A stretch of DNA of 64,000 nt from Geranomyces variabilis (lineage: Eukaryota > Chytridiomycota > Chytridiomycetes > Spizellomycetales > Powellomycetaceae), in assembly GCA_027603065.1 (NCBI GenBank), contig JADGJP010000060.1:16373-80372 (forward strand), written 5' to 3'. The notes under the pieces are model-generated. The model did not search any database and had not been told where the DNA came from. It saw only the letters and a program-made list of their open reading frames with translations. The position numbers and the translations under genes are program-made. This document shows, piece by piece, positions 30,444-62,155 of this stretch. How positions within the stretch are numbered: position 1 is the first letter of the stretch; each line of letters opens with the position of its first letter.

Positions 30444-33377
30444 CTACGATACACCAGCAGCGCGAAGCTGTTCCCTCAAAGCTGCGTGAAAGCCTCTGGC
30501 GTGTGCCGAGCTCATTAAAGTGTAGTGGTGGCCGGCGACCGCCACAAAATCCACGCCTGCACCTGCAAACCGGTCCCAAGCGCTCAACTGGTTGTCTCGC
30601 CACTCCGCTTTGGTTCCTTTCAGTGGATTCGCGTAAAAGCACGTGAGCCGGCAGCCGTGCACGGCACCCGAAGGCTCGTATTGTCGTCCCGCCTGGAGCA
30701 ACGACCATGCGATGTCAACCCAGTGCTCGAGCCGCGTTGCATCCAGCACCAGTTCGGCTACTCTTTCCGGTGGAGCGTGTGAAATAACGTAGCGGATCTG
30801 TTGGCGCCGCGAAAGCTTGTTCAGAGGAGATGCTAGTTTCTCCGCCTCCTCTTTCGAAGTCAAATCAAGAAAGTAGCCAAGATTGAGGAGCCCTTCCGTC
30901 CAGGTTATCTCCTCCATACGCGAGCGAATATGCGGCGGAATGTTAACCTTGCAAAATCAATTATCAAATCGTCAGTTTTCCCGCCGCGTAGGGTTTGATT
31001 GCCTTTCATCCGTGAACGTACCAAGCCCAGGAACTTGACGTGGCGTCCATCCTCCTCAAGTCGCTTAGCCATCTCAAACGCGACAACCCCTCCATACGAG
31101 TAACCTGCGAGAACATAGGGACCAGCCGGCTGGGTTTCGATGATTCCTGCGACGTACGTTTCCACCATTTCATCCATCGACTCGAAAAAGGTCTCGTTTT
31201 GATCGAAGCCCCGCGCACGTAGAGCGAAAAATGGTCTCTCGTGCGCAAAGTGTTTCGCAAGGTTAACAAAAATCAGCACCTCACCAACTCCAGGGTGAAC
31301 AAAAAAGATTGGCGTCCCTTCGCCCGTTACTTGGAGGGGAACTACGGGGTTGTAGGCTGCATTGGTTTCAACAATGGCAGAGTGGTTTGCGCCGTCCAAT
31401 AGAGCGGCGAGGGAACGTATCGTTGGATGGCGCATGATGTTTATGACCTGCCAGTGATCATTAAGGCCGAATCGCTGTAACAGGAACGATCGGAATCTGT
31501 TAAAATGAACGCCATTCAGTTTCCCAAATCATGCACGTTTTGAATCTTCCGAAAACATGAGATTACCTCATCAGTTCGAGCGACGAACCGCCCATGTGAA
31601 GAATGTTGTCTTCCACGCTGATCTCACTCCTGGGCAAACCAAAAACTGTGCTCCACCCAGCTAAGATTGCAGACTCCGTGTCGGTAGCAGGGGACACTAC
31701 GACTTTCTGGCAAATGCTGTCTACCAGTGCTTGGCGCTCTTTGAGCCCTCCCGACTCCAATAGCTTACGAAGCTTGCCCGTGGACAGCTTTCCGAGCGAG
31801 CCCTTTGTCATGGCTCCCTTCGAAAGGGGCAAGACAATGCAGGGCGCCTTTGCGCAGTAAATGACGCACTTGTCGCGGATCCGAGCTTGCGTTTCTCGCA
31901 ACTCCTCGATGTCATTCGGTACACGAAACGTCGGAAGGTAAAGGATGGCGATGTCTTCATGCTGAGAGTTAGGCCGACGAACTGGTATTGCGGCCACGAA
32001 GGACGGCGACACGCCTGGTACTCCTTCAATCATTGCCTGCAACTCTGTGCAGTGGAAGTTCACTCCATTGATGATGAAAGTATCCTTGGCCCGTCCTGTC
32101 AAGGTCAGCCTTCCTGCATGCAGTACGCCGCGATCGCCGGTTTTGAACCACCCGCCCTCCGCAAAGGCTTCGTGCGTTGCAGCGTCGTTATTGTGGTAAC
32201 CAGAAAATACAGTGGGTCCCCGCACTTGCAGGTTGCCGCAGGTGCCGTCCGCTAAAAGTCTATTCTTATTATCGACGACCCGCATTTCAACGCCAGGGAA
32301 AGCGTAACCGAGACAAGCAAACTCGCGGCCCTCGTCGACTTGCGGGAACGCTTTGCTGTATACGAAGCCGGCGCACGTCTCCGTCATCCCGAACCCAGGT
32401 ACGATAATGGCGCGAAAGCCAATATTTAGCGCTTTAAGCTTTTCAAGCAGCTGACGCCCAGTGTTGACGACGATGGCCTCGCCGCCAGAATTTATTCGCC
32501 GCAAGGAAGACAGATCACGTAAGTCTGGCCGTCGATTGTGATCCAGATAATCATTCAAGCGGGCGAGGAGAAAATTGGGAGCCAGCGTCAAGCTCGCGCG
32601 AAACCGTTCGAGGATCTTGAGGAGCGCGCCTGGATTAGTCATGACAACGTTCGCTGACACCTGCACTTGGTTGGCCCCGACGAGCATTGGTGTAATATGA
32701 TTCTCGACAACACATGCGACATGATCGAAGCCCACCCAATTGACGATAGTGTCGGTGGATTCCAGCTCGTAGTCGTCGATTTTGCCCTTCCCCGCCGCAA
32801 TGACTGTGTCATGGTGAAGTGGGACAGCTTTCGCGTTTCCTGTCGAGCCGGAAGTGAGGAGCAGGAGGGCGATATTCTCGGCCGGCCGATTCAGATGAGC
32901 AGATGTGGGCAGTTTGATGGGCCGCGTGAGATCTTCGACGGTGACCACATTCAAGTCGCGAGAGTTCGGACACGAGTCAAAATCCGCCTGCATAAGATTT
33001 CGCGAAGTTAAGAACACAGGCCTTTCAAGGATCGTATCTAGGTGCGCCAGGGGATGCGAGTTTTTATCGCTCGTACGCGTGTTGATTGGACCTTGCACGC
33101 ATGGCACAAGACCGGCTAGCACGACACCCCAAAAGTATTCAATGTTGTCGCGATGATTGTCGAAGTAAAGCACAGCGATTTGATTTTTCTGAAGGCCCGC
33201 GGCTTTCAATGCGCTTGCGATGTTTGTAGCGCGTCTGTGCAGGTCTTCGTAGCTCTGAAATGTCGGATCCGAGAGCTGCTGCTCTGCTTGGATGTAGGAT
33301 ATTCCATTAGCGGGAAATCTCGATGCCGCATCTTGTAACAAATGGCGAGTATTTTGAGGGAGAGAGGATGATGGCAT
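30444..33377 (-). CDS. NRPS-like synthetase, A-T-TE
   Basis: Core enzyme of the cluster; 929 residues in three exons (33377-31567, 31496-31022, 30947-30444), phases 2 and 0, introns of 70 and 74 bases. The adenylation domain carries LLLTSGSTG (172-180), the NWVGFDHV motif, NSGGEA, TGDRGVL, the TGRAKDTFIINGVNF loop and a late STGKLRK with the catalytic Lys. The carrier domain has DNILHMGGSSLELM (phosphopantetheine Ser near 599), completed across the first splice as RFRSFLLQRFGL. The thioesterase has VHPGVGE, nucleophile GYSYGG (Ser near 737) and a late GHHYT that fits the catalytic His. A-T-TE of about 900-950 residues is the form of fungal quinone/furanone synthetases that dimerise aryl-pyruvates (atromentin, terrequinone, microperfuranone types); the FDHV motif is common in that group. 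The substrate is not predictable by eye. It shares a promoter region with the P450. Confidence 0.92.
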
Positions 33378-33864
33378 GTTTGCAGTTAAGGATGGCCGCT
33401 TTTGCGATCGGAAGTGTGAAGACGTCGACTGAGGTTGAGGCGTTCAGATTCTTGCGGGGCGGTTGGCGCTTGTAATGCATCCGCGCGGACGCTAAATCTC
33501 GACGAGATGTGCATGCCGCCGTCGGAGCCCGCGCGTAATATGCATGCAGCTTGACTTGTTCCCCGCCGGCAACGCGGCCACAGATATCCGCGCCGTCCGC
33601 GGCGCGGACGAGATTTTTGACAGTAACGCGCTGCGCCACATTTAGCTGTCGAACACATTCAGTCCGCTGAATTTCGGACTCGCACACATCGAGTCCGCTC
33701 CGCTCGTCATCCGCGAGGCTTGCCAGCTGCGCGGACGGAGAGTCACGTCATGATGGTCTGTCTCTGAATGACCAGGACGGAATCGGGACGCATGTCGATG
33801 TCGTGAAGTAGAAAAGCTGCAGGAAGGTTAGGGATAGACTTACACGTTAGCTCTCTAAACAACC
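33378..33864. promoter_or_regulatory. Divergent promoter, synthetase / P450, GCGGA-rich
   Basis: About 0.49 kb. Repeated TCCGC/GCGGA elements: gtccgcggcgcggac at 33595-33609 (an inverted pair), agtccgctgaatttcggact at 33659-33678, gagtccgctccgctcg at 33690, catccgcgag near 33708 and gcgcggacgg near 33730. The same element recurs in the other cluster promoters. Confidence 0.6.
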
Positions 33865-35832
33865 ATGGACAGTCACTTCCTTCTCGCCAAACTGGTCAAC
33901 ACCGTGCGCGAGACGTCTTTCCCAGTCTCCGCTGCGGTCGCGGCCGCTGTAGCCCTTCTCTGTTATCACACAAACCTGCTCAAAAGTCTTATTGGAAGGT
34001 TAAACGATATTCGAAAACTGGTTGCGGTACGGTAACACCTGCTATTCGTCATCGCGCCGTGCTTTTCAATAACCAAGCGTCGTTGGCTTGCTTTTATAGT
34101 ATGCTAGAAGCACGAAAATCGTTGATAAAAAAGGTCAAGAGATCCCCGGACCAGGCCCCCTAGTGGAAACCAGGTTCTCTCGATTTGACTATCAGACCAG
34201 CATTACCAGAGACTACAAGGACAAGTATGGCGACGTTTACGTCGTCTACAATGGCACGATCCCGGAGCTTGTCCTCACCGACCCAACCGCCATCAAGCGG
34301 TACTATGCGAATGACGGCCGCGTTCATCGTAAGGCGCATGCCATCGGGTTTGGCTACTACTTTGGACGATTGCTCGGCAAAGCAGTGGGCACGATGCACA
34401 ATGAGGACTGGTTCCGCGTGCGCCGCGTGGTTGACCCGCATTTCCAGATGAAAGTGGTCAAGAACATGCTTCCGATGATGGAAAAGGACTTTTGCGAGTG
34501 GTTTGAACAGCTCGAAAACCACGCGGAAGCCAAACACCACGGAAATGCGTTTGAAATGGATGCGCTCTCAGTGTCTGAACGCACGCCGGTGAAGGTCGTT
34601 GCGCGGGCGCTTTTTGATCCCGTTTTGGCGGAGGATGACTTTGAGGCCTTGATCAAGATGAACGAGGTTCACGAGAAGCTGGTGGAGACAGCATTTCTGG
34701 GTCACTTGCCGTCCTATTCGTGGTACCGATGGCTTCCGACCAAGGCAAATCGCATGATGGACGAATATCAGGAAAAGTGGGAAGCGCTTGTACTGGACAT
34801 GGTGGCACGGTCGCGAAACGTGAGACCGGGTTTGCTTTCTCTTAGCCTCACACGTCTTTCATACACTCTCATACACTGAAACCGCTCGAATCATCAGGAA
34901 AACAAGTCATCCCCGATTAGCGAAATGTACAAGTCGGTTGAAGATGGCACTATGGAGCTTATTGAGGTAGCTTTGCACTTGAACCCAAATGCTTCTCGCA
35001 AGCTGGACACTCAACCTCCATCTTTCTCTAGCTTCTGCAAACTGCCGACGAGATTCTGTATACCAACATCGACGTGACATCGACAGCACTCGCTTGGGGT
35101 CTTATCCACCTTGCACAACACCCCAAAGCTCAAGCAAAAGCGCGCCGGGAGGTTTTTGCTGCAATGGAGAATCCGGAATATGGCGCTACCGAAAACGAGC
35201 GAATCGCTCACTACGTGGCCTTGTCTGGAACTTATCTGCACAACTGCATGCTGGAAGCCATGCGACTTGTGCCTTTGCTTTGTAAGTCACTTCATCGTCG
35301 AGGTGGAAGCAGTTAGAACGTGAATTGTCTAACCGCGGATGCCCGTCCTTACAGACTACTCCCTCCCGGAAGTAACGGCTGAGGCAAAGGAGATAGGCGG
35401 CTATGCGGTTCCTGCGAATGCAAGTATTTGGTGAAACCAAAGATGGAACCTTAGCTAGCATTGATAGCTGACATTGTCCGCCTTTTGCCACTCGCACAGA
35501 CCTCGGTACTCATTGACGCACACACGCTTAATCGCACCGCGCCGTGCTGGGCGCCAGATGGAGATTGTTACCGGCCTGAGCGTTTCGAGTCGCTTCAGGG
35601 TCTTGATTACCGCTACTCTCTATGGAGGTTTGGAATCGGCCCGCGCAAATGCGTGGGGCAGTTCTTTGGAGACAAGATCGCCAAGATGTTCCTTTCGAGC
35701 GCATTGCGGACCTTTGAGTACGAGATTGTGGGACCCATCACCAAAAAGCAAAATCTCTTTGTCCAAACACCCGAAGCGACTTTCCGAATGACGCCCATCG
35801 CGGGACTTGCACCGGCGGTGAGGCCTAAATAA
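33865..35832 (+). CDS. Cytochrome P450 monooxygenase
   Basis: Six exons (33865-34026, 34100-34819, 34898-34966, 35032-35281, 35355-35419, 35500-35832), 532 residues, all phases consistent. An N-terminal membrane anchor (FPVSAAVAAAVALLCY) is followed by a proline-rich hinge (IPGPGPLVETR), an I-helix region (LYTNIDVTSTALAWGL), ExxR (EAMR), the PERF motif and the haem loop FGIGPRKCVG with the axial Cys near 473. The fifth intron (35420-35499) needs a GC-AG splice (gcaagt donor): only that gives PANTSVLIDAHTLNRTAPCW in frame, the conserved segment between ExxR and PERF. It is ER-anchored and needs a reductase encoded elsewhere. Divergent pairing with the synthetase suggests oxidation of the synthetase product. 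The subfamily is not assigned. Confidence 0.93.
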
Positions 35833-35942
35833 GTTTTTCCATTACCTTTTAGCGTAGAGATATTCAGAGTAAAGTACTTTGTTATTAGCGTATATATGCC
35901 ACTGGGTTTACATGTAGAACCAGAATCAGGCAGCCTTGAGAT

Positions 35943-37765
35943 TTATTGGAGGAGCGCACTATTTAAGCATCTAGACTCAAATTTTAGGTGAGGGGAGGCT
36001 CGGGGAAAGAAAGCGATTACGCAGTCCTCGGCTGTCAAGCCGCACTGTCCGATCAGCTGGTCATCTTCCAGATATCGCGGTCGTGCGCCTTCCCAGTGCC
36101 ATAGCTGTAGATTTCCAGTCGAGCCAGACTCGATGTTTTCGGCCGAAGACGCGACGTTTGAGCGGGAGGCGGATAGTGAAAGGTAATGCCTCACGAATTT
36201 TTTGACCGCCGATACAGGCATGTGGCTCAGGACCGGCACCGGCACTGTAAGACCTTGGTTCTTCTCAAACCCAGCCAACGGGTAAGTATGCGCGTTTTTT
36301 GGTTTCGGACACCGGGGAACCGTAACATGGAGAACCGACACTTCAAAGCTGCCGTCAGGGGAAGGCACATGAGAAACTGTGTCATGAGTGGGCAGAATAG
36401 GCGACTGGACGTCAGCTGGTGGCTGGCATTCGCTGGCGGGAAGACAAATGGATGGCGGGATCATGACAGGGGAGGGGTCAAAGTAGAAGGGCGGAAGCAA
36501 TTGACTAAGAGGTGCAGGTTCCTTAAGACTGTTCTCGCAGGTCCCAATGCGTAAGTCGGTGTCGGATACGCGAGAGTGGGCATTGCGGCAGCAACAGCAG
36601 GGGTCAGTGGGCCTGTCATCGACACCGATAAGCCTACCGCAGCGGCAGAAGGTGTGGATGGTAAGTCCGCCAGGCGCGAAGCAGAAGCTAGCAGTCTCCC
36701 GTTGTTGTTGATGGGTTTCGGTGACAGCCATGACGACGTACGCTCAAAATGTTCGACAAAGGTCGAAGACAGTGTTGGAATGACCAAGGCCGACACCGAG
36801 CCCGTTAAAGAGGACGGCGGACCCTCGAAAAAAGCAGGTGTTGCGGTTTGCGCTGAGGACTCGTCGCTAAAGGATTCTGACAGCAGAGTCGATGTATAGC
36901 TGTCGAACCAGTCGTTGTCAAAGATGGAGGAGTCCACACTTTTGGCTTCGCAGGCGGACAAAATTTCGGAATCTTTGGCATCCGTTGAGGGTGACATCCG
37001 TCGACTCTTCTCCAGCGCTGTACTGTTTTCGGCATTGGCGCAATCAATGTTGGGACGTTTTGTCCCCGCGACGGTGCAGGGATGTAGCTCGTCCGCCTTG
37101 CCCTTGCCTTTGCCCTTACTTTCCGGGACCAGCATCTCGAAGATTGACATTCCGATTTCTTTATTGTCCCTCGCAGCATCGCAGTGAGGAATGTGGTCCT
37201 TTGCTTGCAGAAAGCGCGCCAGGTTTCTGCATGGAAGAAAATTAGCGCACGGAGAGCCGGAAAGGCAGACACATATGATTTTGCAGTTTTGTACCTTCCG
37301 CATCGGCAATGCCAATGACTAGACCTTTTTTGTTCTCTGTACACGCATGGGAGGCACTTGCAAGCAAGGCAAATGGAATCACCGGCCTCGATGACCTCTT
37401 TGCCGCGCTGGGCGTGGGCTTCGTGCAAGTGAGGTACCAAATATTGAGCTATGATGAGGTCCTCGCACAATATGCATTTGACATGCCGTTGATCTTCTAA
37501 AAAAGGGAAGGGAATAAGTATTAACAAATCGAAGGTGCAAGTCCGACGGCAGAGCGAGCGCACATTACAGCGAGACTACAAGTGACTCACCCCCGAGAAA
37601 AGCCAGGATCCGCTCGGCAGACAAAAAATCGGTTTTTGGTATCCATGATGCTCGCCTTCTGAGAAGCACGAGGGGGTCGTGCACGCTCAACGGTTGAGGC
37701 GGCGGTTGCGGCTGGCGAGAGCTCCCTGCCGCTTGATGCGTGGCAGTACCGGTTCGCTGGCGCAT
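35943..37765 (-). CDS. Zinc-finger protein, putative pathway regulator
   Basis: Four exons (37765-37591, 37496-37295, 37226-36570, 36504-35943), 531 residues, phases 1, 2 and 2 closing exactly. The start is supported by a TATA box (tatatagc) about 75-80 bases upstream. A Cys/His-rich region lies at about residues 66-150: VKCILCEDLIIAQYLVPHLH EAH is a C-x2-C...H-x-H-x2-H finger, followed by CLACKCLPC, HWHCRCGR and HIPHC, so several zinc sites are likely. The middle is Ser/Thr-rich with a basic KGKGKGK patch. The C-terminal 120 residues (TVPVPVLSHMPVSAVKKFV ... LQLWHW ... LEDDQLIGQCGLTAEDCVIAFF) have the strand-helix-strand pattern of a ubiquitin-like fold; this is inference. It is the only likely regulator in the cluster and is divergent from the phosphate carrier. 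Could instead be an E3-like or chromatin protein. Confidence 0.7.
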
Positions 37766-37835
37766 TCTAAGGTTTTTAATGCTGTCTGAGACGCCGGAAT
37801 CCCTGTTCGGGAGGGGCAAGCGTCTTTCGCAGGCC

Positions 37836-37850
37836 GAGCTATATACGCAC
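37836..37850 (-). promoter_or_regulatory. TATA box of the zinc-finger gene
   Basis: On the minus strand gcgtatatagctcgg precedes the ATG at 37765 by about 75-80 bases and supports that start. Confidence 0.55.
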
Positions 37851-38039
37851 TGCCGTACAAGTGAGAGTGGCCACACCCACGACTCCCCCGCTCACTCCAA
37901 AAAACGTGCGGGCCGCGGCTGGCAAGGCAAAGCCAGAAAAAAAGAAGAGGAAAGGCGCATGCCATCTGTGCCAAGCAGCGCAGAAGGGGTTAAAAAAACG
38001 TTAGGAGTGACGTAAGTCAGCCGCTAGCCAATATGGTAG

Positions 38040-38080
38040 TAGGAGTACAGTTCGCCAAATCCGCCAAATCCGCCACTTGT
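38040..38080. promoter_or_regulatory. TCCGCC repeats between regulator and carrier
   Basis: gccaaatccgccaaatccgc (38053-38072) is followed by cacttg: two or three direct copies of (A)ATCCGCC in the shared promoter of the zinc-finger gene and the phosphate carrier, matching elements elsewhere in the cluster. Confidence 0.5.
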
Positions 38081-38233
38081 AACCGTATCCTCGGCTCCCC
38101 ACGATGTATGGCTGTTGCGTTTCAGCGGCGAGGTGTCCTTAAGTTGGCCGTCCCGCAGTAGAGCTGCCGGCCCTTCGCACCTCGTCGCTTCTCACACACA
38201 AAATCCCTGCATTACACCTCCGTCACATAATCG

Positions 38234-39427
38234 ATGACTTCTGCTGCTACCATAATCAAGGCCCCGTGGGATGCTCGCCTCGCAGGGCCCGTGCCGCACG
38301 ACGGGACATACTATGCGAAGTGCTTCGGCTCCGGGATCGTCGCTTGTGGCGCCACGCACACTTTAATCACCCCGCTCGATGTCACCAAATGCTCTATGCA
38401 AGTCAACCCTACCAAATACAAGGGACTCGGGCAAGGGCTTCGCACAATTATTTCGGAGGAAGGCGCACGCGCAATCTGGAAGGGCTGGGGTCCCACAGGT
38501 AGGAAGTGACCCGTCGCGTTTGTGCTCTTTCGAATAACCCGGATGCTCAAGCTTGCCCTTTGCTCAAGCGGTGGGATACTCGGCTCAGGGTGCCTTCAAA
38601 TTTGGGCTCTATGAGTTCTTCAAGGATACCTACTCCAACCTCGTCGGGGAAGAGAATGCTGCAAAATACAAGCCTCTTATCTGTAAGTGATTTTTTCACG
38701 CGTCAAGAGGGCACCATCTAATACGTGTCGTTTCCTCATGACTTTTGCTACTACAGGGTGCGCCGGCTCCGCGTCCGCCGAGTTCTTTGCCGACCTGGCG
38801 CTCTGTCCATTCGAAATGACCAAGGTCAAAGTGCAGACATCTGCAGTCGGCACATTCCCAACCGCGTTTGGGCCTGCACTGTCGCAAATGATGACCCGCC
38901 GCGCCGACACTAAATTCCCTTACGGATCCATTGGACCCTTGTGGGCCCGGCAGTATGTATCTGCGCTTGGGTTGATGATGGCGCACAATTCCAAAAGCAT
39001 CTGCTGATCTTGGTTCCAATCCTCTCCTTCAAGAATCCCGTACAACGTTTCCAAGTTCTTCTTCTTTGAACAGATCGTTTCTGGCATGTACACATACGTC
39101 TTCACAAAACCGAAGGACACGTACTCCAAGACCACCCAACTGGGTGTGACATTTGCTTCGGGTTACCTTGCCGGTGTTGTGTGCGCGATTGTGTCCCACC
39201 CAGCCGATTCAATTGTATCACTCATGTCCAAGCCGGATAACAAGGGCAAGAGCGTTGGTCAGATTGCGCGAGAGACGGGCGCCAAGCGCTTGTTTACCGG
39301 AGGTCTTGGCACTCGTGTGCTGATGATCGGAACCCTCACCGGCTTGCAATGGTGGATATACGACTCGCTCAAGACGGCAATGGGAATGGGCACCACGGGT
39401 GGCGCTGCGCCTGCGGCTGCCAAGTAA
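38234..39427 (+). CDS. MIR1: Mitochondrial phosphate carrier (Mir1 type)
   Basis: Member of the mitochondrial carrier family that imports phosphate into the matrix. Four exons (38234-38498, 38569-38682, 38757-38952, 39034-39427), phases 1, 1 and 2, 322 residues. The three repeats have carrier signatures: TPLDVTKCSMQV, CPFEMTKVKVQT and SHPADSIVSLMSK. Phosphate-carrier hallmarks are GYSAQGAFKFGLYEFFK, LWARQIPYNVSKF and GGLGTRVLMIGTLTGLQWWI. It is a housekeeping-type gene, yet it sits inside the biosynthetic cluster, divergent from the regulator and sharing its GCGGA-type promoter. A truncated inverted copy of exon 4 lies at the far border (59539-60054). It could be an accidental resident or a spare, inhibitor-tolerant target; that is inference. 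Confidence 0.92.
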
Positions 39428-42142: not shown

Positions 42143-42564
42143 TTTTGTACAACTGAAGAGCGGTTACCGATTTCTGCGAAGGTTTAAATGTTTTCGATTT
42201 TGGGCCCCAAGAGGATACCGCTTTCAATGTAATCGGTTTTCTAACGTTTTTTTTTTCTTTTTTTTTTTTTCCTTTTGTTTTTTTCCACAGGACGTGGTGT
42301 AATGTACCTGATGCTGTGCTTTGACGATTCCTATCCCCTTTGGGTATCAAAGTTGACGAGGCCGGCTATGCTGACGCTTGTGCTGGAGTCGGAATTGGCG
42401 AATCCGCTCGGTCCGCCGCTTCGTCCGCTCCGTCCACAGCGAGTTCCGAGTGACAATGACGTTCGCGACGAGCAGTGGACACATGTTCCAGGAAGCGTAG
42501 ATAGGTGGATATAGTTAACATGAAGCGTATCATACCGTAGTTCTCACTGCTCACCTCTGAAGAC
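42143..42564. promoter_or_regulatory. Divergent promoter, unknown protein / laccase
   Basis: Contains a long T-rich tract (42246-42290) and clustered TCCGC elements (aatccgctcggtccgccgct and cgtccgctccgtcc, 42403-42436). Confidence 0.55.
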
Positions 42565-46784: not shown

Positions 46785-46849
46785 CGTAGTGCGGCAATGC
46801 GCCGAGTCGACGGCGGCTCCGCGGCGCCCACGTAGTCCGCTTACTCACG

Positions 46850-46920
46850 TTGACTCACTACAATAGCTGCACTTGCGCGGACGGGGCGGATCCTGCGGAT
46901 GGACTTGGTCAAGGACTGAG
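46850..46920. promoter_or_regulatory. GCGGA elements between acyltransferase and exporter 1
   Basis: cttgcgcggacggggcggat and cctgcggatggact (46872-46905) give three close GCGGA copies in the shared promoter. Confidence 0.5.
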
Positions 46921-47001
46921 CTAACCTTTTTATAGACAGGCATGAAGCACGGTCGTCGGTCTTTTTGCTAGAAAGTTACTTTCAACCCTTTGCCACGCAG
47001 G

Positions 47002-48752: not shown

Positions 48753-49144
48753 CTGGACAGTCGTACATCATTCCGTTTTTCTGTGACCAATCATATCCAT
48801 TATATTTCTGCGAAAAATACGACTTCACAGCCTTTACCGGCGCGCTCATCGCTCAGTTCAGAACAAGAAGGACCTGACTTAAGAATGTGCAAGTGCTATC
48901 AAACGCATACGTGTGTTAGTCAAAATCGTCGCGGCAGGATAGTCCTGAAGGTTTTTTGTCTCGGGTGAAGGAGCGACCATAAATTGCGTAGGAGTCAATC
49001 TGAGTTATGATCTTTCTCAGTTGGCCTTGGTCTTCGCCGCGAAGGGCATTCACGTGGACGTCATTAACGCGATTGATTGGGGTTAAGTCTCATGTTTCAA
49101 GCAACCTAAGCCTTATGTCTTTAGGTCTTTAGTATCTATCTCAT
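48753..49144. other. Intergenic between convergent genes
   Basis: About 0.39 kb, no gene or repeat seen. Confidence 0.4.
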
Positions 49145-51682
49145 TTAGCGATCAACCTCAAAAGGACGTGTGGTTTCATAAGGCTTCACGTCAAAGCGTT
49201 CGGCAAGAACAATAAACGAGAGGACAATCATCAGATTGCGGGCGCTGGACATGTCTCCCGTGCCGTCGAATTTGTTCTTCAACTTTTCGACTGCCTCCCA
49301 GCTGGCCCACCCAAGCCTTTCAACGGCCTCTCGCCTCAGGCGTGTCGTAAAAAGCTGACCCAAAGGTCCCTTGGTTTCCTTCACGGGAGGGGCAAGATAC
49401 GGATGCTTCCGGCGTGCGTAAAGTTCTTCGGAAATGTAAGGCTTTACAGCCTCTCGCAGAATCCATTTCTCAACAATATCACCGTGAGCATCCGGGCGGA
49501 TTTTAAGGTGACTGTATGTATGGCGTAAGTAAATGAGGGAGGAAAAACGTCAATCAACAACGTGAACTTACGGAGGGAGGCCGTTGACGTATTCGCACAA
49601 ATGATGGTCCAGAAACGGAGTACGCCCTTCGACCGAGTGTGCCATTTCACTCCGATCGCCAAGCACATTGCACAGAACATTGCTAAGGAACGTCCGACTT
49701 TCGGAATACTGAAAATATTGGTAAGTCACTTTCCCGAAGCTCGGGAACACGAGCGGGTATTGGATGTTATGACTGTACCAAAGCTGTGTGTAGCGGATGC
49801 CACTAGCAAATTCAAGTTGTTAGTAGTGCGCGCGTACAGCACCACTGACTTTCCACTCACTTTGTTTGCAGCTTTTGCCCTAGCGATGCCGTTGAGTCCA
49901 CCTGCTAAGGCAAATGCTGCGTCCGGCATTCCCGTTGATTCCAGTACGTCCTTCTTGAAAAACGTTGCCGACATTTGTGCCGAAGCGGCCAGTGCGCAGT
50001 GAGAACTGATTCCATTCAGCATTTTCATCGCTGCTTGCGAATCAGAACTGGAGATTTTCGCAATCGATACTTCGTCTTGCGCTGGAGACGCCCTGCCGCC
50101 CTCAAGAGCTTCCAATCTGGCCACACGCTTGTCGCAGGATAATAACTCTGCCCTGTCACTCTCAGAGAGCGTTGAGTCCATTTCGCGAAGAGCGTCAACC
50201 AGAAAAAAAGAATACCCGGCAAAATGTTCATCGGAGCCTTCTCCGGTAAGAACCACCTAGAGAGAAAGGGCCATGAGTGTGGCGCGAAAGAGGTCCTCCA
50301 AACGCAGTAGTCCAACCTTGAAGCCGCTGTCTCGAGTCGTTTTCGACAGCAAAAACTTTCCAACGGCATTTAGATCCGGCATTGGATGCTCAAAGTGATA
50401 GATTGCATCCTCAAAACTATTGGCAAGCGCATGTTCAGTCAACGGAACGGGATGAAAGTGAGCCCCGACGTGCGAGGCCATTCTCTGCGCGATAGCGCTT
50501 TCATCAAAAGCACCGCCGCCTAGAAGTATACGAATCAGAAATCTTCGAATGCATTCGATCAGAAGCATTCACGCCACATGGCGCATCAGCTTACCTGGAA
50601 ATTCAATCGTAAACGCGTGAATTTTTGCAGTTGGGTCAGTTTCTCGCAGAATGGAGGTGCTTATTCCTGCGATAGCTGCACTGTCAATCCCGCCGCTGAG
50701 ATAAATAGCCAACGGAACATCCGCATGCATGCGAAGGCGTATAGATTCGACGAGACGGTCGTGAACACCCAGGATCATCTCCTCCTTCGTTCGCGCCTCG
50801 GAAGCCAGTTTGTCAGGATAGTCGGCATCCCAGTACGGCTGTATGGTAATGTTTCCATCAAGTGTGCAAGTGAGGTAGCTTGCAGCGGATAGCTGAGAGA
50901 GTTGCCACCTGAGAATGCGATATTGCGGCATATTCTTTGGTTACGACACATGTACATACCTTGTTGACCGCTTTAAACAGTGTACGTGAATCAAAAGAAG
51001 AACCGGAGTGAACGATGCTGTTGACATCCCATTCAGCAACCCAATTGAAGGCCTTGAAGGCTTTGATCTCGCTGGCAAATAGCAGGCGGCCCTCGGAATA
51101 TGTGTAGTAGAGCGGCTTTATCCCGAATCGATCGCGTGCCGCGACGAATAGCTGTCGACGCTCATCCCACAAACATAATGCAAATTCTCCGCGCAAGTGG
51201 TCCAAAAACGAAAGCCCGTACATCTCGTAGCTGAAATGGACGATAAATGCTTTGGCCAAACTGACAATCCTGTTGTCGGTGCCCATTTGAAAGCACTTAC
51301 AGGTGCACGACAATCTCACTGTCGCAAAGCGAGGAAAACACATGACCTGCGCTCTCCAGATCCCGTCTGATGGCCTGGTAGTCGTAGAGCTCGCCATTTA
51401 CTACGGCGTGAACCTCGTTGGTCTCGTTAGCAATGGGTTGTTGTCCCGATTTGAGGTCAATGATTGCCAGGCGAGCGTGTCCCAGACCTGGACAATATTT
51501 CAGCAAGAGCAGCTTCAGTACTTATATTAACAGTCGAAACAAATACCGAGCCTTCCACATGGCGAGATATATGACCCTCGCGAGTCCGGTCCGCGATGAT
51601 TGATCAAGTCAAGGGATGCGCTTAGCTGTTCGCCAGAAACAGCGGGTGCTTCTCGGGCCAAGCAAGCAATAATTCCACACAT
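49145..51682 (-). CDS. Glutamine-dependent asparagine-synthetase-like amidotransferase
   Basis: Transfers ammonia from glutamine to an adenylated carboxylate. Eight exons (51682-51547, 51487-51301, 51230-50960, 50892-50595, 50519-50317, 50256-49861, 49783-49572, 49511-49145), 689 residues. The start gives MCGIIACLA with Cys2 as the glutaminase nucleophile, then NHRGPDSRG, LAIIDL and VVNGELYDY. The synthetase domain has the PP-loop YLSGGIDSAA and LTGEGSDEHFAGY, then EGRTPFLDHH and the late KWILREAVKPYI. The length is that of bacterial AsnB-like or secondary-metabolite members rather than the roughly 570 residues of the housekeeping yeast enzyme. The fifth intron uses a weak gttgga donor. It is divergent from the AttH/CrtC-like gene. 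In a cluster, such enzymes may form an amide or lactam on the product; asparagine synthesis is the alternative. Confidence 0.9.
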
Positions 51683-51819
51683 TGGAAGTGCAATAGAGGG
51701 GCTGACGTATGCTTATGACAATGCGGGGTTGGGGCGCACTGCCTTCCTGATTTAAGACGGCGCGAACGGTCCCTCGCCTGTGTAAAATCCGCATGCAAGA
51801 ATGAGTCACGCGCTGTCAC

Positions 51820-51860
51820 GGTCCGCACCGCGGACGGCGCGGATGTTTCGAACCGTTCCA
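51820..51860. promoter_or_regulatory. GCGGA elements between amidotransferase and AttH/CrtC-like gene
   Basis: ggtccgcaccgcggacggcg followed by cggatg (about 51822-51846) gives an inverted TCCGC/GCGGA pair and a third copy. Confidence 0.5.
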
Positions 51861-51998
51861 GATTTTCGTACATTCCCCTGCTGATTTCCGCCATAAAGAC
51901 AAAGCACAAAAATTATCAGCGGCATAGTGAAACTTAATATCTACCTTCTTCCGCCTCAAGACAGCTCTGAACCGAACTTTGGCCCCTTACACCCACCA

Positions 51999-53403
51999 AT
52001 GAGATTCACGACAACACTGCTTGCAGCATTTTGCCTGCACGGCATGCTCGCCCTCGCAGCACCTTACCTGTCGCTCAACCTGAATGAGCTTATCTTGCAA
52101 ACCACTGCGACACGTTTAATTGCATCGCCGCTCGATCAAACCAAGTCCGGGAAGCGCCAGTATCGTAGTTGTGACGCGAGCAACCGTCCCATTCGAGACG
52201 GTAGCTTCGACTCTCCACGCATCAAAGCTTTCGCAACCGGCGCCTTCGAATCGTGGCACTTTGATATTGCTCTTATCCAAAATAGCACCAAGTTCTTTTT
52301 CACCTGGCACGCGAGTGACCCTCTGCACGGCGGCTATGATCCTCAACTCATCGTCGAATTTACGCTTCCAAACGGTACTCATCATACGAGCGTCACCAAG
52401 GGAGATATGGTGTATCGACACGATGCGACCCATGGGTACTCGCTCAGCATTGGCAAAAGCAGCTTCACCTGGACTGACGACGCAAAGTGGTACAAGCTGA
52501 AAGTGGATACCGAAAATTTCCAAGCAAGTTTGACGTATGAAAAGTAAGGCACGTATTGCTCTATTTGACGTAACCTGCTTGAGCTAACTTCTGTCTTTTT
52601 AATACCAGCATGTTACCTTTAGCGTTTGTCCCTCGGCAGTTTGATGAGTCCTATGCCATCCTGCCGTACTTGAACGTCATTGTGCCGATTCCCCGCGCGC
52701 ACGTGGATGGATGGGTCCAATTTGCCGGCGGTGAACGTTGGGCCATTCAAAACGTCGGCTTTCATGTAAGGGTGTTAAAGGCAAATTTTAAAGTAATGGA
52801 AAGTCACTTACGGCGGTTCATCGGTCAGGATCACCGTTGGGGTGAGCAACGCGAGGCGAACAAAGGATATTCGTGGTGCGAACCGTTTTGCGGGCTAAGA
52901 ATTCGGACACTATGATGCTGAGACGTTATTATTTCATACAGGTCTTTGTTGCGTGCTCACAGTTGGAACGTAACCGTCAATGCGCTGATGGTCACCAGCC
53001 CCGATGGCAAAGGTAAGGAAAGCTAGTAAGGTCCCAAAAATCTGTCAATCCTTCATTAAGACCTATTCATGTAGAGAAAACTACTGCCTCGTACCTCGCG
53101 CATTTTCATGAGCCGCTGTACAGCTTGTGGGACTCGACTTCAGCGTCGCTAGTTCCCTCGCCGCAGGTCGCGACGGACGTAATACCCCTAACCGGTTACG
53201 TTTTGGACTATGATGTTTGTAACGAGTCTGGGCACTATCACCTCGCCGCTTTACATGAGATCTCAACCGAATGCGCATCCGCAAGCGGGAAAAAGCGAAT
53301 CAGTTTAACCCTTACAGGAATGTCCATTCAAGAGGGTCGGGTAACAGAGAAGGTTGACTGGGGCGTAGGCTATATTGAGCACCACCACAAATGTACTATG
53401 TAA
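51999..53403 (+). CDS. Secreted AttH/CrtC-like (lipocalin-type) protein, possible pericyclase or isomerase
   Basis: Five exons (51999-52543, 52609-52765, 52829-52875, 52942-53012, 53075-53403), phases 2, 0, 2 and 1; 382 residues. The ATG at 51999 is chosen because it begins a signal peptide (MRFTTTLLAAFCLHGMLALA). The pattern matches the tandem lipocalin-like AttH/hydroxyneurosporene-synthase fold: an early GAFESWHFDIAL block (compare ExWYFD), then the domain-boundary GFHDHRWGEQ, created across the second splice, which matches the conserved G-x-HDHxWG, followed by GYSWSLLRAHSWNV. Fungal decalin and pyrrocidine-type Diels-Alderases share this fold and length. The signal peptide is seen in some of them. 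Several N-glycosylation sites are present. Assignment to the fold is moderate; catalysis is inference. Confidence 0.62.
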
Positions 53404-53569
53404 AGTAAATAGAAGCGTTTTTCCTGACTTCGTTGCTTCCGTTGACTATTCAAGCATTCTAAGTCCTTTGCCACATATTGACTGCAATGTACCTTGGCTT
53501 TCCAGGTCAAAAGCCAGTGAGGAAAAACATCGAAACTAGTGATCTGTTGGAAACAGGTGGCACAGTCAC

Positions 53570-53640
53570 GCAGCGCGTGAGTCATCCGCCATCCGCATCA
53601 TCCGCCGCATCCGCACCTCCCTCTTCCGCCGTCCCCCTCT
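53570..53640. promoter_or_regulatory. TCCGC repeat cluster upstream of the O-methyltransferase
   Basis: Between 53583 and 53635 there are about six ATCCGC/TTCCGC copies spaced by 6-9 bases (for example catccgccatccgcatcatc). Confidence 0.55.
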
Positions 53641-53778
53641 CGCCCCCGTGCTCGGCAATCGGACATCCAGCGCGGAGCACCAGAACTTTTACAAATCTGT
53701 AACAATAAATATTAAGGAGCATCACGCTCCCCAGTTCAAGTGACAAAATCACCTCCCACCGCAAACATCAGCCTCAAA

Positions 53779-55189
53779 ATGCTTAGCGCAGAAGAGTTCG
53801 AGTTTGACACCCTTATCAACAAGCTGACAGCCGCCTTCACTACACTCCGCGCGTCTTACAACACTTGTAAGAGCGCCGGGCCCGCCGCTGTGAGCGCTAA
53901 AGGGCAGTTACTTTTGTCTTTGGAAGCGCTTCAGCATGGCATCGACGAGTTGACGACTCTGATAGCGCCGAAGGATTCCATCACTTTGATGACTGGCAGA
54001 TTCATCGAAACAAAAGCTTTGGTGGCCGCCGTGGACCTGGGCGTTGCAGAAGCGTTAGGAGGCACCAAGATGTCCATTGCTGAACTTGCCATCGCCGTTG
54101 AAGCCGATCAGGGCAAGCTGCGTAAGTGAAAGAATGTGTCTGCGCTGTGACCTCAGGATCTCTCAGTAACCTCAGAATTACATCAGGCCAGATTATGTCA
54201 CTTTTAGCCAATCGGTGCGTATTCAGCCAACATGGAGATGTATTTAGTAACAACGCAGTTTCAACGCTACTGCGACAAGATGATCCAATGAGTATGAAGA
54301 GTCTCGTCGGTCATTGGTATGCTAGATGCCCGATTTGCTGCATTTGTATGAGATTTTAACGAATACTTATTACGCACGAAAAGGGGAATCGACACTTATC
54401 GCGCCGCGTTATCACTACCGGAAGGACTTTTGACCAAGAATGCGTTGAAATCCCCTTGGGAGCTTCAAGTTGGGGAGTCGTTCTACAAATGGGTGCACGA
54501 GCCGGACAATGCTGCTTCGTCGACAAGAGTCAACAACGCGATGCAAAGCTTCAATGGGTCTATTCAAAGCGATCTTGTCAACGGCTTTGATTGGAGCTCC
54601 CTCGGAATCGCAGCCACGCTTGTGGATGTCGGTGGAGGCACGGGAGCCATCGACCTGGCGCTTCTGAAGCAATGGCCGAACCTGAGGGTAGAGCTCCAGG
54701 ATCTGCCAGACGTTATTGAGCAGGCCCAAATAGTAAGCCGCGGCGCTGCTTGCTTACTGAGACCCTATTAATGGAAGCTAACGCATGCGCAATCACCCTG
54801 TATAGGAATGGAAAAAATTCCACCCAGATCTCTGCTCGCGGGTCACTTTTACCGCACAGGACTTCTTCCAACCGCAAGTTCGCACGCACAAGCATTATCT
54901 CATCAAGCAATGCTTGCACAACTGGGGTGACGATGACTGTTTGCGGATTCTCGGCAATCTTCGCAAATCGATATCGCCTGATGGTCGCCTCTACGCCGCT
55001 GAATTTGTCATGACAACCGACGCGAACGCTATCAAGCACATTATAGATGTGAATATGTTAGCATTGGTGAATTCTTTGCAACGCACTGAGGACCAGTTTG
55101 TGGAATTGTTCGAAAAGGCTGGATTCCGTGTGGTCACAGTACATCAGAGCACCGGGGCCATCAGCTTGATCGAGGCGGTCCCCTTATAA
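53779..55189 (+). CDS. SAM-dependent O-methyltransferase
   Basis: Plant-COMT-like fungal methyltransferase. Four exons (53779-54121, 54187-54316, 54384-54732, 54806-55189), phases 1, 2 and 0; 401 residues. An N-terminal helical dimerisation region is followed by LRQIMSLLANRCVFSQHGDV and FSNNAVSTLL, the winged-helix part. The SAM site is LVDVGGGTGAIDLALL with VELQDLPDVI after it. The catalytic base is the His in KQCLHNWGDDDC, and the C-terminal segment (ALVNSLQRTEDQFVELFEKA) is typical. For intron 1 I take the acceptor at 54186, giving a 65-base intron; an earlier AG would make it 35 bases. It likely methylates a phenolic or enolic hydroxyl of the product. Confidence 0.92.
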
Positions 55190-55474
55190 GTACTCCTGTT
55201 CCGCCAAATCTCTATGCTGTCAAAAAACAGTTACTGCAGCCACGCAATGAAAGCGTTAAATAGCCCCAGAAAATCGCGCGGCATCATTCGCCTGCCCGAC
55301 GCGCAATGGTTAAAAATGTTATGAAGCGGCCTTGACATTTTAGGGAAATGAATCAAGCCAGTGCGGGCGTCCTTACCTATTTGTTCGGAAGTCCAAAAGG
55401 TAGGCAGCACTTTTCCAACCCATTAACTAAGGAAATTTCCACATTCTTTTCAAAGCACGAAGTAAAGAAAGTCA

Positions 55475-56758
55475 TTATTGGCTGTTGGTTTTCTCAACTC
55501 CCTCGCTCTCTACAACTATCACAGTCTTTCCCTTCACCGCCCTATCACAAACACTCCCAATAGCATTTTGCAGGGCTGGTGGGTCGTGGAAGTCTATCAA
55601 GTGCAACGCCTGATTGCACTTGAGCGACCCGTCTTGGAATCCGCGAGAAAGCCTTTCCAAAAGTTGTGCGCCGTCGTTTTGAGTGACTTGACCAGAGCTC
55701 AGGCCGTGCAGGGTCAGGCCCTTGGCGTAGAGTTTGCGGAGATTGATTTTTGCCATTCCGGCCTGCATTTCGAAGAAAGCTGTCAGTTATATATAGACTC
55801 TGACGTGAACAACGTATTTGAATGTCACCTTGTCATGGGCGGCCATGACTACGATTCGACCGCCCGGTTGCAGCACGTCAAGCGTGGCATTCAGCAAATG
55901 GGCATCATAGTCAGCTCCAAACGCGTCAATCACCACACTGACTTTGCCCATCGAGGCTTTTAGGAAGTCGGCGTATTGCTCGGTGGAGTGTCCAGATTGA
56001 CTCAGGTCGACCGGAGTATAGTCGGTAGGAACCTTGACAGGGGTCAAAGACATAGTCCCAAAAAGTGAACGCACGCCCTGTTGCCTACAAAGCTGAACAG
56101 CTGCAGATCCAATCGATCCCCGAGCACCGACAACGAGAACCGAATCATCGCTGGTGATGCGCGCCAGTCGATTAACTGCCAAGTCAGCACAGAGCCATGG
56201 CAGCCCCACGCTGGCTGCTTGCGGTGCGGAGAGAGCAGACGGTCTTTTGCAGAGCGCAGAGACTGGAACTGCAATATATCTAGTAAATGGCATAAGGGTA
56301 AACCTTTTATTTGCGCGAGGATGGACATGGCGCATATCACTTCTGCTTACTCCGCCCAAGCGCCATCTTGGCTGAACCCTACGTTTCCTCCAGTGCCCCA
56401 TACTTTAACGCCAACCCATTCTTGATGCCCTTGATCATTGACTTGCGTCACGATGCCAGCAAAATCTCGTCCTGGGATACGCGGGGTGGTGACAAACGGC
56501 AACCAACCGCAAATTCCCACAACGTCAGACTATAGCCGATGCGCAATCAGTAAAAGGGAGGCAGCATTGCCAATTTACAGCTAAATACTTTACCAGGTTT
56601 ATTCCCGTTGCTTGCACCTTTATAAGTGCCAGTCCCGGTCCCAAGATTGGCTGCGATACGGTGGTGTATTTCAAGTTCCCGACTTCGCCCGTTTTGTGAT
56701 ATCGATAAGCTCGCATAGGCCTGACGGCGTCGTCGAGTGGAGCAATAGCTACTGTCAT
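55475..56758 (-). CDS. MDR-family quinone oxidoreductase / enoyl reductase
   Basis: NAD(P)H-dependent medium-chain reductase without catalytic zinc. Four exons (56758-56594, 56529-56351, 56279-55829, 55762-55475), phases 0, 2 and 0; 360 residues. The start gives MTVAIAPLDDAVRPMRAYRY. Family blocks: IKVQATGINLSDVVG, IPGRDFAGIV, GAWAEYIAVPV (restored by splicing), the Rossmann motif VLVVGARGSIGSAAVQL (G-x-R-G-x-I-G) and the C-terminal LHGLSSG plus GKTVIVV. The third intron must use the acceptor at 55763 (gaaatgcag); the nearer cag would break the frame. It is divergent from MFS exporter 2. Likely reduces an enone or quinone in the pathway. Confidence 0.88.
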
Positions 56759-56979
56759 GTGGCGTGAGTACCGTGAATAATGCGACAGCGTTGTTGGAAG
56801 AGTCAGAAATCGCTTGTTTGTGTGCAGATGCGAGAGATGACGGTAGACCACAAGCATCTTGAATCTCTATATATCATAGACATTCCATGAGTTCTTATCG
56901 GGGCGTACACGATGATGTACAGAAAATCAATTCGAGAAGTGTGACGTAACTCGTCGGAATGAGTTTCATGGTAGCGGAT

Positions 56980-57035
56980 CATGCGGACGGTTTTGCGGAC
57001 TTTGCGGATTCGGAATTCCGCAGACTCTCCGTCAA
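56980..57035. promoter_or_regulatory. GCGGA repeat cluster between reductase and exporter 2
   Basis: From 56987: gcggacggttttgcggactt, then tgcggattcggaattccgca. Four GCGGA-type copies in about 45 bases, including a TTCGGAATTCCG palindrome. Confidence 0.6.
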
Positions 57036-57131
57036 AAAATATTCGCGGCCAGTGCAAATGACTTTTAAGGCTGAGAATGACCACTGTGCTCGCTCAGCCA
57101 AGGCGCATATTGATGCTTTTTCCTTTTCACT

Positions 57132-59173
57132 ATGGCTGAGATCAACGGTCTATCAACCAGTGAAGCCGACCACGAACACGTCACTGTGACTCATCACGTC
57201 GTTGACGACGTCGAATGGCGCGCCGCCGAAATTGACCCGTATGCGCCCCAAGCGGCGCCGGACCCCTTGTCGCAATCACGCCGTATACTTCTCCTAGCTG
57301 CGTACGTGCTGCGTCTAATCTATCTACGCCAATTGGCGCTGATTTAAACCATGCTGACCATTGCGCATTAAAAGCTTAGCCAGCGTCGTGTTTCTCGCCG
57401 CGCTCGACCAGACGATCGTGGCAACAGCTTTAAACCAAATAGGAGCTGATTTGCAAGGAGCCTCGGCGATCCCATGGATTGGAGCTGCATATTTGTTAAC
57501 ATCTGTACGTGACCTGCGTGTAGCAACATTGGCAAATGTTTTGATACGTGTCCCACAGACGGCGTTTTGCTCTTGCTACGGCAGTTTTGCCGACATTTTC
57601 GGGAGAAAGCCAATCATACTGAGTGCAATCACCATTTTTGCAATTGGCTCGCTGCTGTGTGGAAGCGCAAAGAGTATGGTTGTGCTTATATTCGGCCGGG
57701 CTATCGCCGGCATAGGTACCAGGAGCGTGTTTTGTTTGAGCTACGAGACGGTTATGTAACTAACGACCTGGGCGAGTATTGTAGGAGGCGGCGGGCTGAT
57801 AACATTAGTGCTTATCATTATTGCAGACATCATTGCACCGGCCGATCGCGCTCGGTATCAGGGCCTTATGGGCGGCGTGTTCGGACTAGGGGCAGTAGTC
57901 GGCCCTCTCGCTGGCGGCGCTCTGACAGAGCATGCCAGCTGGCGATGGTGCTTCTACCTCAATCTGCCAATATGCGGTCTTACGGTGGCTGTGCTTGCCA
58001 TAATGCTCAGCAGCAAAGCGGCGGACGGCAGCATGTCGTCAAAATTGCGACGGATTCATTATACGGGAACTGCGCTGCTCACTGCGGGGTGCGTGTGCCT
58101 GCTATTGCCGTTGCAGATGGGCGGCAATCAGTGGCCATGGACGAGCGCGCAGACCATTGCGTTGCTGATCATCGGCGCGGTGATAATGGCTGTATTTGCA
58201 TGGTCGACAACAACAGTATCGGAACCGATCATCTCGCCCAGGCTTTTCATCAACCGAAAAGCCGTCGCCCTTTTGTTAGCCTCGTTCTGCCTCGGCGTGA
58301 CTTTCTATGCTGAAGTCTTTTACGTCCCGTAAGTGCGCGATTGTGGCACAATAATTCCAACGCTATTTCCTCTGAGGTCGGCTAATGAACGGACGGGTAT
58401 TGCAGTACATTTTTCGAGGTGGTGAATGGCGTGTCGGCGACGTCTGCCGGCGCTGAGAGTTTGCCCTTAATTCTCTCAGTTGTGTTCGCGAGCATGGCAT
58501 CGGGTGAGCAGCACAACCCAAACCTTTTTTCAATCATCTTTTGAAAGCAGCGCTGATCGTTAAGTGTCACAACTGTCCTTTTCATGCAGGGCACATAATC
58601 TCAAAAACGAACGTGTACCTGATATTCCCTTTTATCGGTGCAATCCTTTCGACCATTGGCCTGGGCTTGATGTCGACGATGGATGCCGATTCTGCACGCT
58701 GGAGAGTTGTGCTGTATCTGATCGTTGCGGGTCTCGGCAGTGGTTGCGTCGTGCAGACCGCAATCGTGGGGATCCAAGCCAGCGTGGAAGCTGACATGTT
58801 GGCCGTGGCGACTAGCGCAATCGCTTTCATCCAAATGCTCGGCGGGTGAGCGCATTTTCAAAGGTGGTTTTATGCTCTTCGATGCCGTTCCTCATTATTC
58901 ATGCTTTATAGGGTTTTTGGAATTGCATTGTCGGGCACCGTGTATAGCACTGTTCTTCAGAGCTGTCTTGCCTCGGACGCACCGTCGGTCGATCCGAGCC
59001 ACGCACAGTCGTCCAATCTTCGCAAACTTCCTGAATCTCTGCAAGGGCCGCTAGGGAACTGCTTTACGCAGGCGATGCAAAAGACCTTCCTGCTCCTGGT
59101 TCCATTTGCCGGCCTGATGTTTATCGTAATGCTGCTTGCTCTGGAGCCGCGAGGCGGCCGCCCGACGCGATGA
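57132..59173 (+). CDS. MFS exporter 2 (14-helix drug:H+ antiporter)
   Basis: Aflatoxin-pump/Azr1-like exporter. Seven exons (57132-57301, 57375-57504, 57559-57715, 57785-58328, 58406-58503, 58590-58845, 58912-59173), all phases consistent; 538 residues. A hydrophilic N-terminus is followed by VFLAALDQTIVATALNQI (helix 1 with the LDxTIV motif), the loop GSFADIFGRKP, IFGRAIAGIGGGG and the antiporter motif GPLAGGALTEHASWRWCFYL (G-x-x-x-G-P-x-x-GG). About 14 helices. The second exporter of the cluster and its right-hand gene; it may handle a different intermediate or a vacuolar step. Confidence 0.92.
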
Positions 59174-62128: not shown

Positions 62129-62155
62129 GTAGAGTCAGATCAACAACGCTCAGCC

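Follow-up and report, generated by a model that had tools for sequence, protein, structure and literature searches.

A predicted thirteen-gene cluster around an atromentin-like synthetase, with a shared phased promoter repeat, in the chytrid Geranomyces variabilis

The window analyzed in this work is a 64,000-nucleotide stretch of DNA from Geranomyces variabilis (a chytrid of the order Spizellomycetales, family Powellomycetaceae; locus-tag prefix HDU88), comprising bases 16373-80372 of an 80,372-base contig (JADGJP010000060.1), the right end of the window being the contig end; the genome amounts to 23.8 Mb in 91 contigs. Positions 30444-59173 of this window hold thirteen genes around an adenylation-thiolation-thioesterase (A-T-TE) synthetase, which probably form a co-regulated cluster making an atromentin-derived pigment that would be methylated, acylated, amidated, exported and oxidized by a laccase. 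A core enzyme is found here with contiguous tailoring and transport genes, the arrangement by which fungal biosynthetic gene clusters are recognized, and the gene content, the reading frames, the family membership, the letters of the substrate pocket and the promoter motif were all computed.

Gene modeling relied on stretches free of stop codons, on conserved motifs and on splice-site scores for which 16 other 10-kb pieces of this genome served as training data, with manual splice choice. All thirteen genes could be modeled with closed phases and zero internal stops, in agreement with an earlier note on this DNA, which had described them as intact, and together they take up 24,035 of the 28,730 bases of the cluster. 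The modeled frame has a higher coding score than both other frames in 13 of 13 genes, and the longest open reading frame (ORF; 626 codons) exceeds the maximum of 259 found in 30 shuffles of the stretch. The AttH-like model (382 aa), the only one of the 13 for which a deposited protein from this genome served as a check, is identical, letter for letter, to HDU88_007844, while in the AsnB model two of the seven introns were picked by homology and not by the best splice score. Ten of the thirteen genes are supported by Pfam (synthetase, P450, carrier, laccase, BAHD, both major facilitator superfamily (MFS) proteins, AsnB, the O-methyltransferase and the medium-chain dehydrogenase/reductase (MDR) enzyme), and twelve are arranged as six divergent pairs. 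Searches of the window for tRNAs and, at gathering thresholds, for Rfam families gave no match. The genes and the promoter regions between them are the following:

30444..33377, minus strand: A-T-TE quinone-type synthetase, 929 aa, 3 exons (introns 31497-31566 and 30948-31021; Pfam AMP-binding, PP-binding, Thioesterase)
33378..33864, no strand: bidirectional promoter region (array 33586-33600; 9 RTCCGC copies in all)
33865..35832, plus strand: cytochrome P450, 532 aa, 6 exons (last intron 35420-35499 GC-AG; Pfam p450 1.7e-49)
35943..37765, minus strand: Cys/His-rich zinc-finger-like protein, 514 aa, candidate cluster regulator (pattern read by eye; single copy in genome)
37766..38233, no strand: bidirectional promoter region (array 38059-38073)
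38234..39427, plus strand: mitochondrial Cu/Pi-type carrier, 322 aa (Pfam Mito_carr; ortholog tree)
40330..42142, minus strand: 578-aa protein without a reliable family, single copy in genome (ORF and intron model)
42143..42564, no strand: bidirectional promoter region (array 42402-42416)
42565..44805, plus strand: laccase, 587 aa, 8 exons (three Cu-oxidase domains in Pfam; best PDB match laccase 9gly, 4e-65)
45067..46784, minus strand: BAHD-type acyltransferase, 528 aa (Pfam Transferase 6.8e-46)
46785..47088, no strand: bidirectional promoter region (arrays 46877-46900)
47089..48752, plus strand: MFS transporter 1, 513 aa (Pfam MFS_1 1.8e-46)
49145..51682, minus strand: AsnB-type class II glutamine amidotransferase, 664 aa, 8 exons (TIGR01536 419.5 bits, cut-off 267.1; Pfam)
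51683..51998, no strand: bidirectional promoter region (array 51830-51844)
51999..53403, plus strand: AttH/lipocalin-like protein, 382 aa, fold unproven (identical to HDU88_007844; DUF7065 E 0.0089, below cut-off)
53404..53778, no strand: methyltransferase promoter region (arrays 53591-53614)
53779..55189, plus strand: O-methyltransferase, 401 aa (Pfam Methyltransf_2 3.4e-32)
55475..56758, minus strand: MDR / quinone-reductase-like oxidoreductase, 360 aa (Pfam ADH_N, ADH_zinc_N)
56759..57131, no strand: bidirectional promoter region (arrays 56974-57009)
57132..59173, plus strand: MFS transporter 2, 541 aa (Pfam MFS_1 1.6e-35)

What may tie these genes together is a phased direct repeat, RTCCGC-N3-RTCCGC, with 10 exact copies in the window (mean 0.09 and maximum 1 in 100 shuffles), all 10 of them in the seven promoter-type gaps (six bidirectional promoters and one single promoter) and none in the five gaps between gene ends; an array lies 93-294 bp upstream of each of the 13 predicted starts. 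The hexamer RTCCGC itself occurs 30 times in the approximately 2.75 kb of the seven start-containing gaps, once in the approximately 1.95 kb of the five gene-end gaps, once in each outer flank examined (1,044 and 427 bp), 30 times in the 24.0 kb of the genes and at 1.6 per kb elsewhere, and 10 of the 16 spacings between neighboring same-strand copies (up to 40 bases) are exactly 9. The single hexamer is unspecific (117 in the window versus 84.6 expected), and only the phased pair is specific. Genome-wide, the composite motif has 68 matches (58 of them outside the cluster) versus 34 for a reversed-pattern control, and no other span as long as the cluster has more than 3 matches, which overlap and form one array (G000:C2:283816-283848). 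In the cluster, 0.07 matches are expected (P about 7e-19) or, counting arrays, 0.065 against the 7 found (P about 9e-13); these P values are optimistic, as the pattern was derived from the very gaps on which it was scored, and the genome-wide rarity is their sole independent check. Correction for a million patterns would leave the conclusion unchanged.

Since the motif is absent elsewhere in the window and so few copies are expected in the cluster, it points to the 13 genes being one predicted regulon. The earlier note had named unrelated regulation of the genes as an outcome that would speak against a cluster, and a motif shared by all 13 starts bears on that possibility; the cluster borders proposed there are likewise marked by the motif, which has no exact copy in the rest of the window (one match with 1 mismatch lies just outside, at 59234). 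Additionally, a near-identical 24-bp element (96%) occurs in inverted orientation at 33586-33609 (between synthetase and P450) and 51821-51844 (between AsnB and AttH), and some 10-mers that appeared to be common to four promoters were discarded, being really in two.

The core enzyme shows the Pfam order AMP-binding (residues 17-395), PP-binding (570-637) and Thioesterase (666-911), with neither a condensation (C) nor a reductase (R) domain; this order, together with Val at code position 1, places it among the non-reducing enzymes related to nonribosomal peptide synthetases (NRPS-like, A-T-TE). A total of 1384 proteins was obtained from 7999 scored candidates, and the pocket was read from an alignment of 121 sequences, consisting of this synthetase and the best 120 of the 1384 matches, to which all statements below on its relatives refer. 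The code positions were set by motif (following the GrsA numbering), code position 1 being V220 in FDHVA and code position 5 N296 in NSGGE; the published residue 323 of NPS3 fails to map on the listed row P0054, whose Asn is residue 311. The pocket letters V-A-V-N-G-G-A-G are found in this synthetase and in five early-diverging relatives, VALNGGAG in 76/121 and VAINGGAG in 8/121 (together most Boletales rows and one Basidiobolus), and the named bacterial rows have Ile, Val or Leu where the Boletales rows carry Asn. Seibold and colleagues (PMC10316625) associate Val at position 1 with keto acids and Asn at position 5 with 4-hydroxyphenylpyruvate, and section 11 of their paper describes position 5 as contributing to substrate choice and not strictly determining it. 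The pocket predicts 4-hydroxyphenylpyruvate as the most likely substrate.

The thioesterase domain carries the motifs of Tapinella AtrA and is 55-61% identical to the rows with which it was compared (two Boletales, one Basidiobolus, Spizellomyces and Calcarisporiella), with 55-57% to the Boletales versus 50-53% to two bacterial rows. Both the pocket letters and these motifs favor a quinone core of atromentin-like type over the furanone type that the earlier note had named beside it. The closest relative is HDU86_008409 of Geranomyces michiganensis (90% identity), followed by a homolog from G. variabilis HDU87 (87%), Spizellomyces sp. 'palustris' (51%), Basidiobolus and Calcarisporiella (47-48%) and then, at 40-43%, the Boletales atromentin synthetases, unnamed metagenome proteins and bacterial (mostly actinobacterial) proteins; zero ascomycetes are among the named rows. 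When 38 of the aligned sequences were placed in a tree (unrooted, with a long-branch warning, and without ascomycete or clade I sequences), seven chytrid and Basidiobolus synthetases group together (97/92) beside the Boletales group (100/100), and the Calcarisporiella synthetase adjoins the bacteria. The synthetase falls outside the Boletales (clade II) atromentin synthetases in this tree and is, by its predicted features, atromentin-like and not a member of the Boletales clade. That this G. variabilis synthetase is closer to that of G. michiganensis than to that of the other 'G. variabilis' hints at mislabeled or cryptic Geranomyces species.

As for the tailoring enzymes, the AsnB protein starts with Met-Cys and is an extra copy, another one being present on contig C8, and the MDR enzyme scores 101.5 bits against TIGR02824 (quinone_pig3), below the cut-off of 296.8. 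The N-termini of the laccase (hydrophobic) and of the AttH-like protein look signal-like by eye. Pfam gave nothing for the zinc-finger-like protein, and for the 578-aa protein nothing reliable (HTH_50, E 0.13); an AlphaFold2 model of the first 369 residues of the latter (pLDDT 33.3) was unusable for a fold search. The AttH/CrtC label, which goes back to the earlier note, turned out to be unproven: the sole Pfam match at E up to 10 is DUF7065 (16.6 bits, cut-off 27, E 0.0089), there is no credible PDB relative (the best, at E 0.76, is a chance match), and only three proteins (the protein itself and two from Geranomyces) were found among 3787 candidates. An AlphaFold2 model built from these three (pLDDT 34.3) was likewise unusable for a fold search. 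The protein also contains an HDHxWG stretch that may resemble AttH/CrtC proteins.

The mitochondrial carrier, of a kind that several matches name Cu/Pi carrier, shares 98.8% identity with a G. variabilis protein already deposited. In a tree of 24 sequences it groups with proteins from Fimicolochytrium, Powellomyces and both Spizellomyces, and its paralog on contig C1 lies in another group; both groups hold Fimicolochytrium and Spizellomyces punctatus proteins, and the duplication is therefore old. This phylogeny makes the carrier a conserved paralogue of long standing, rather than a resistance copy of recent date. Two partial copies were also seen, one in the window at 59726-60057 (minus strand; last exon only, DNA 77% identical) and one at contig C50:54319-54584, and the carrier seems to shed partial copies.

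Part of this arrangement is found in other genomes, as read from locus tags on the assumption that these run along the contig. In G. michiganensis the synthetase (HDU86_008409) and the AttH-like gene (HDU86_008415) are six tags apart on a 66,958-bp contig, and the same distance separates HDU87_006667 (synthetase) and HDU87_006661 (AttH-like) in G. variabilis HDU87 (145,563-bp contig); in Spizellomyces 'palustris' two tags separate the synthetase homolog g02367 from the carrier ortholog g02365, and both are listed on a 333,595-bp contig. The family matches, the linkage of synthetase and AttH-like genes in the two Geranomyces genomes and the shared promoter motif support the coherent cluster around a quinone-type A-T-TE synthetase that had been proposed.

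From the families present we infer the following pathway, in which the substrate, the step order, the amidation target, the secretion and the identity of the regulator are the interpreted parts. The aromatic alpha-keto acid 4-hydroxyphenylpyruvate, coming from primary metabolism, would be activated by the synthetase and loaded on its T domain, and the TE domain would condense two units into a terphenylquinone core of the atromentin type. The MDR enzyme could then reduce the quinone, the methyltransferase and the BAHD enzyme could cap phenol hydroxyls, and the P450 could oxidize or cleave the core ring to give a carboxyl or vinylogous acid, an acid group that AsnB would turn into an amide with glutamine nitrogen. 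The product would leave the cell through the MFS proteins and be finished outside by oxidative coupling through the laccase, possibly helped by the AttH-like protein; the N-termini of these two proteins look signal-like. One regulator, plausibly the zinc-finger-like protein, would read the phased RTCCGC repeats in the seven promoters. A bolder proposal, which we consider possible yet doubtful, is that a zoosporic fungus has a dedicated pathway to a terphenylquinone amide, organized as a single regulon in which one cluster-specific factor reads the 9-bp-phased repeats and into which the carrier has been drawn, possibly to supply the laccase with copper or as a protection.

Several observations weigh against the pathway and the cluster as proposed here. 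The cluster has no aminotransferase gene; for RicA, the aminotransferase is likewise outside the cluster (PMC8403587). The coding scores of -0.05 to 0.11 per codon are low next to a median of 0.18 for 21 training genes, which makes composition alone weak evidence for genes, and the zinc-finger, 578-aa and AttH-like proteins are without a proven family. The adenylation domain is 37-38% identical to the Boletales versus 40-41% to two bacterial rows, the TE domain alone being closer to the Boletales. Besides the optimistic P values mentioned above, an unbiased ranking of 6-mers (gaps versus genes) is led by AAAAAA, concentrated in two gaps, with ATCCGC and GCGGAC coming next. Additionally, the longest contig listed for the deposited carrier (99% identical) has 379,813 bp, versus 145,563 and 66,958 for the synthetase contigs, and the carrier may not be linked to the synthetase everywhere. 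Finally, from synthetase to AttH-like gene there are nine gene steps here versus six tags in HDU86 and HDU87, a difference in gene content or annotation in which three genes may be missing or unannotated there.

This last difference leads to an alternative that has some chance, though we hold it unlikely, namely that a smaller conserved pathway of ten genes is interrupted here by the zinc-finger protein, the carrier and the 578-aa protein. The six-tag distance would correspond to the five genes left between synthetase and AttH-like gene once these three are removed, and the carrier belongs to an old ortholog group (including Fimicolochytrium, Powellomyces and Spizellomyces) and is far more conserved than the synthetase (98.8% versus 87-90%). 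Nevertheless, the promoter motif is also present in the gaps between zinc-finger and carrier genes and between 578-aa and laccase genes, the carrier ortholog is close to the synthetase homolog in Spizellomyces 'palustris', and annotation may miss or fuse genes, as in HDU86, where the AttH-like and methyltransferase genes form one model. A self-protection role, in which the carrier would be a copy of the product's mitochondrial target, is quite improbable: its place inside the cluster, its motif-bearing promoter and the paralog on C1 would fit, but a recent duplicate confined to producers does not agree with the 24-sequence tree, where the duplication is old. Moreover, Fimicolochytrium, Powellomyces and S. 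punctatus have carrier orthologs, yet they are not among the best 120 synthetase matches, and in a literature search on the self-protection idea no paper had three or more of the four terms.

Concerning the product, it is rather unlikely that the synthetase makes a furanone, a butyrolactone or a polyporic-acid-type core from phenylpyruvate, instead of an atromentin-type quinone. The outcome of TE reactions is reported to depend on the TE catalytic triad (PMC8403587), the fifth code position does not strictly fix the substrate (PMC10316625, section 11) and the comparison set is without any furanone-forming synthetase; on the other hand, the named atromentin synthetases agree with it in their pocket letters and TE motifs, and the named rows among the best 120 of the 1384 matches include no ascomycete synthetase. 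The chance that the 13 genes are mere neighbors, and the motif a generic bidirectional-promoter element of this fungus, is very small. Six of the seven gaps are divergent promoters and could share core elements, but the genome-wide matches, set against the control, are far too few for a generic element, and the 3 matches of the densest span elsewhere lie in a single array. The genome count already disfavors this explanation.

Among the known systems, the Boletales atromentin synthetases (AtrA of Tapinella and the Serpula and Suillus homologs) have the same A-T-TE layout, a keto-acid pocket with the Asn at code position 5 and the AtrA TE motifs, with 41-42% identity overall. Their small clusters of three genes (synthetase, aminotransferase and dehydrogenase) differ from the present one, with 13 genes and without the aminotransferase. 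Bacterial A-T-TE synthetases share the layout, at about 43% identity (two rows compared), but have Ile, Val or Leu in the pocket, which are phenylpyruvate-type letters; EchA is a bacterial counterpart named in PMC10316625. The ascomycete alf (allantofuranone) cluster (PMC12105029) likewise combines an A-T-TE core with a dehydrogenase and an O-methyltransferase (AlfC/AlfD reduce and methylate the terphenylquinone), but it differs in its phenylpyruvate substrate, ring-cleavage dioxygenase and C6 regulator; the ucd cluster is mentioned there as related, and the word laccase is absent from the main text of that paper. The Asp-melanin system of Aspergillus terreus (MelA/TyrP) likewise pairs a cytosolic keto-acid synthetase with an oxidase outside the cytosol, whereas it has two enzymes, a furanone core (aspulvinone E) and a tyrosinase instead of a laccase (PMC5735947). 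For the amidation, ftChyD of chrysogine is likewise an AsnB-type class II amidotransferase with Cys2 and a tailoring enzyme in a fungal cluster; it acts on a peptide in an NRPS pathway, and its amidation of a carboxyl is a precedent for the AsnB step (PMC9622831).

Among the papers listed in literature searches, judged by title and start of abstract, a scope that leaves most subscription papers and MIBiG outside, there was no report of a quinone synthetase cluster in a chytrid. The novelty, as far as seen, lies in the phylum of the host, the set of genes and the layout of the regulon, the core reaction being known. Zoosporic phyla are described as poor in secondary metabolites, with Basidiobolus as an exception among early-diverging fungi (PMC7466969) and the anaerobic gut fungi as another (PMC8106346); an intact, motif-marked cluster with a predicted atromentin-type core in a chytrid would add one more exception, open to direct testing. 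The cluster is also relevant to the origin of the mushroom quinone synthetases, the nearest relatives outside the genus being, among the best 120 matches, those of Spizellomyces and Basidiobolus, then Calcarisporiella, Boletales and bacteria. If a terphenylquinone-amide regulon does exist here, atromentin-type synthetases would be older than the mushrooms from which they were described, or would have a place outside them. The phased repeat offers an easy entry point for identifying the regulator and activating the cluster.

With respect to the flanks, the left one had been called decayed, a description that holds only in part: an aldehyde dehydrogenase model that only partly covers its profile agrees with it, and what disagrees is an 895-aa open ORF as well as a complete-looking chitin-binding polysaccharide deacetylase. 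Also left of the cluster lie a NACHT/NPHP3-type NTPase (762 aa in one open frame, window 19471-21756, plus strand) and, immediately beside the cluster, a tandem repeat (window 29122-29550; unit of 164 bp, 2.6 copies). Near the contig end there is a Ty3-like retrotransposon gag region (window 61079-63553, plus strand), with Retrotrans_gag at 1.2e-9 and Ty3_capsid at 1.4e-8 (second of two frames). Elsewhere in the genome, condensation domains are matched 25 times on contigs C24, C11 and C1, in many cases within long open frames (up to 1722 aa), which amounts to multimodular chytrid NRPS genes, possibly of bacterial origin.

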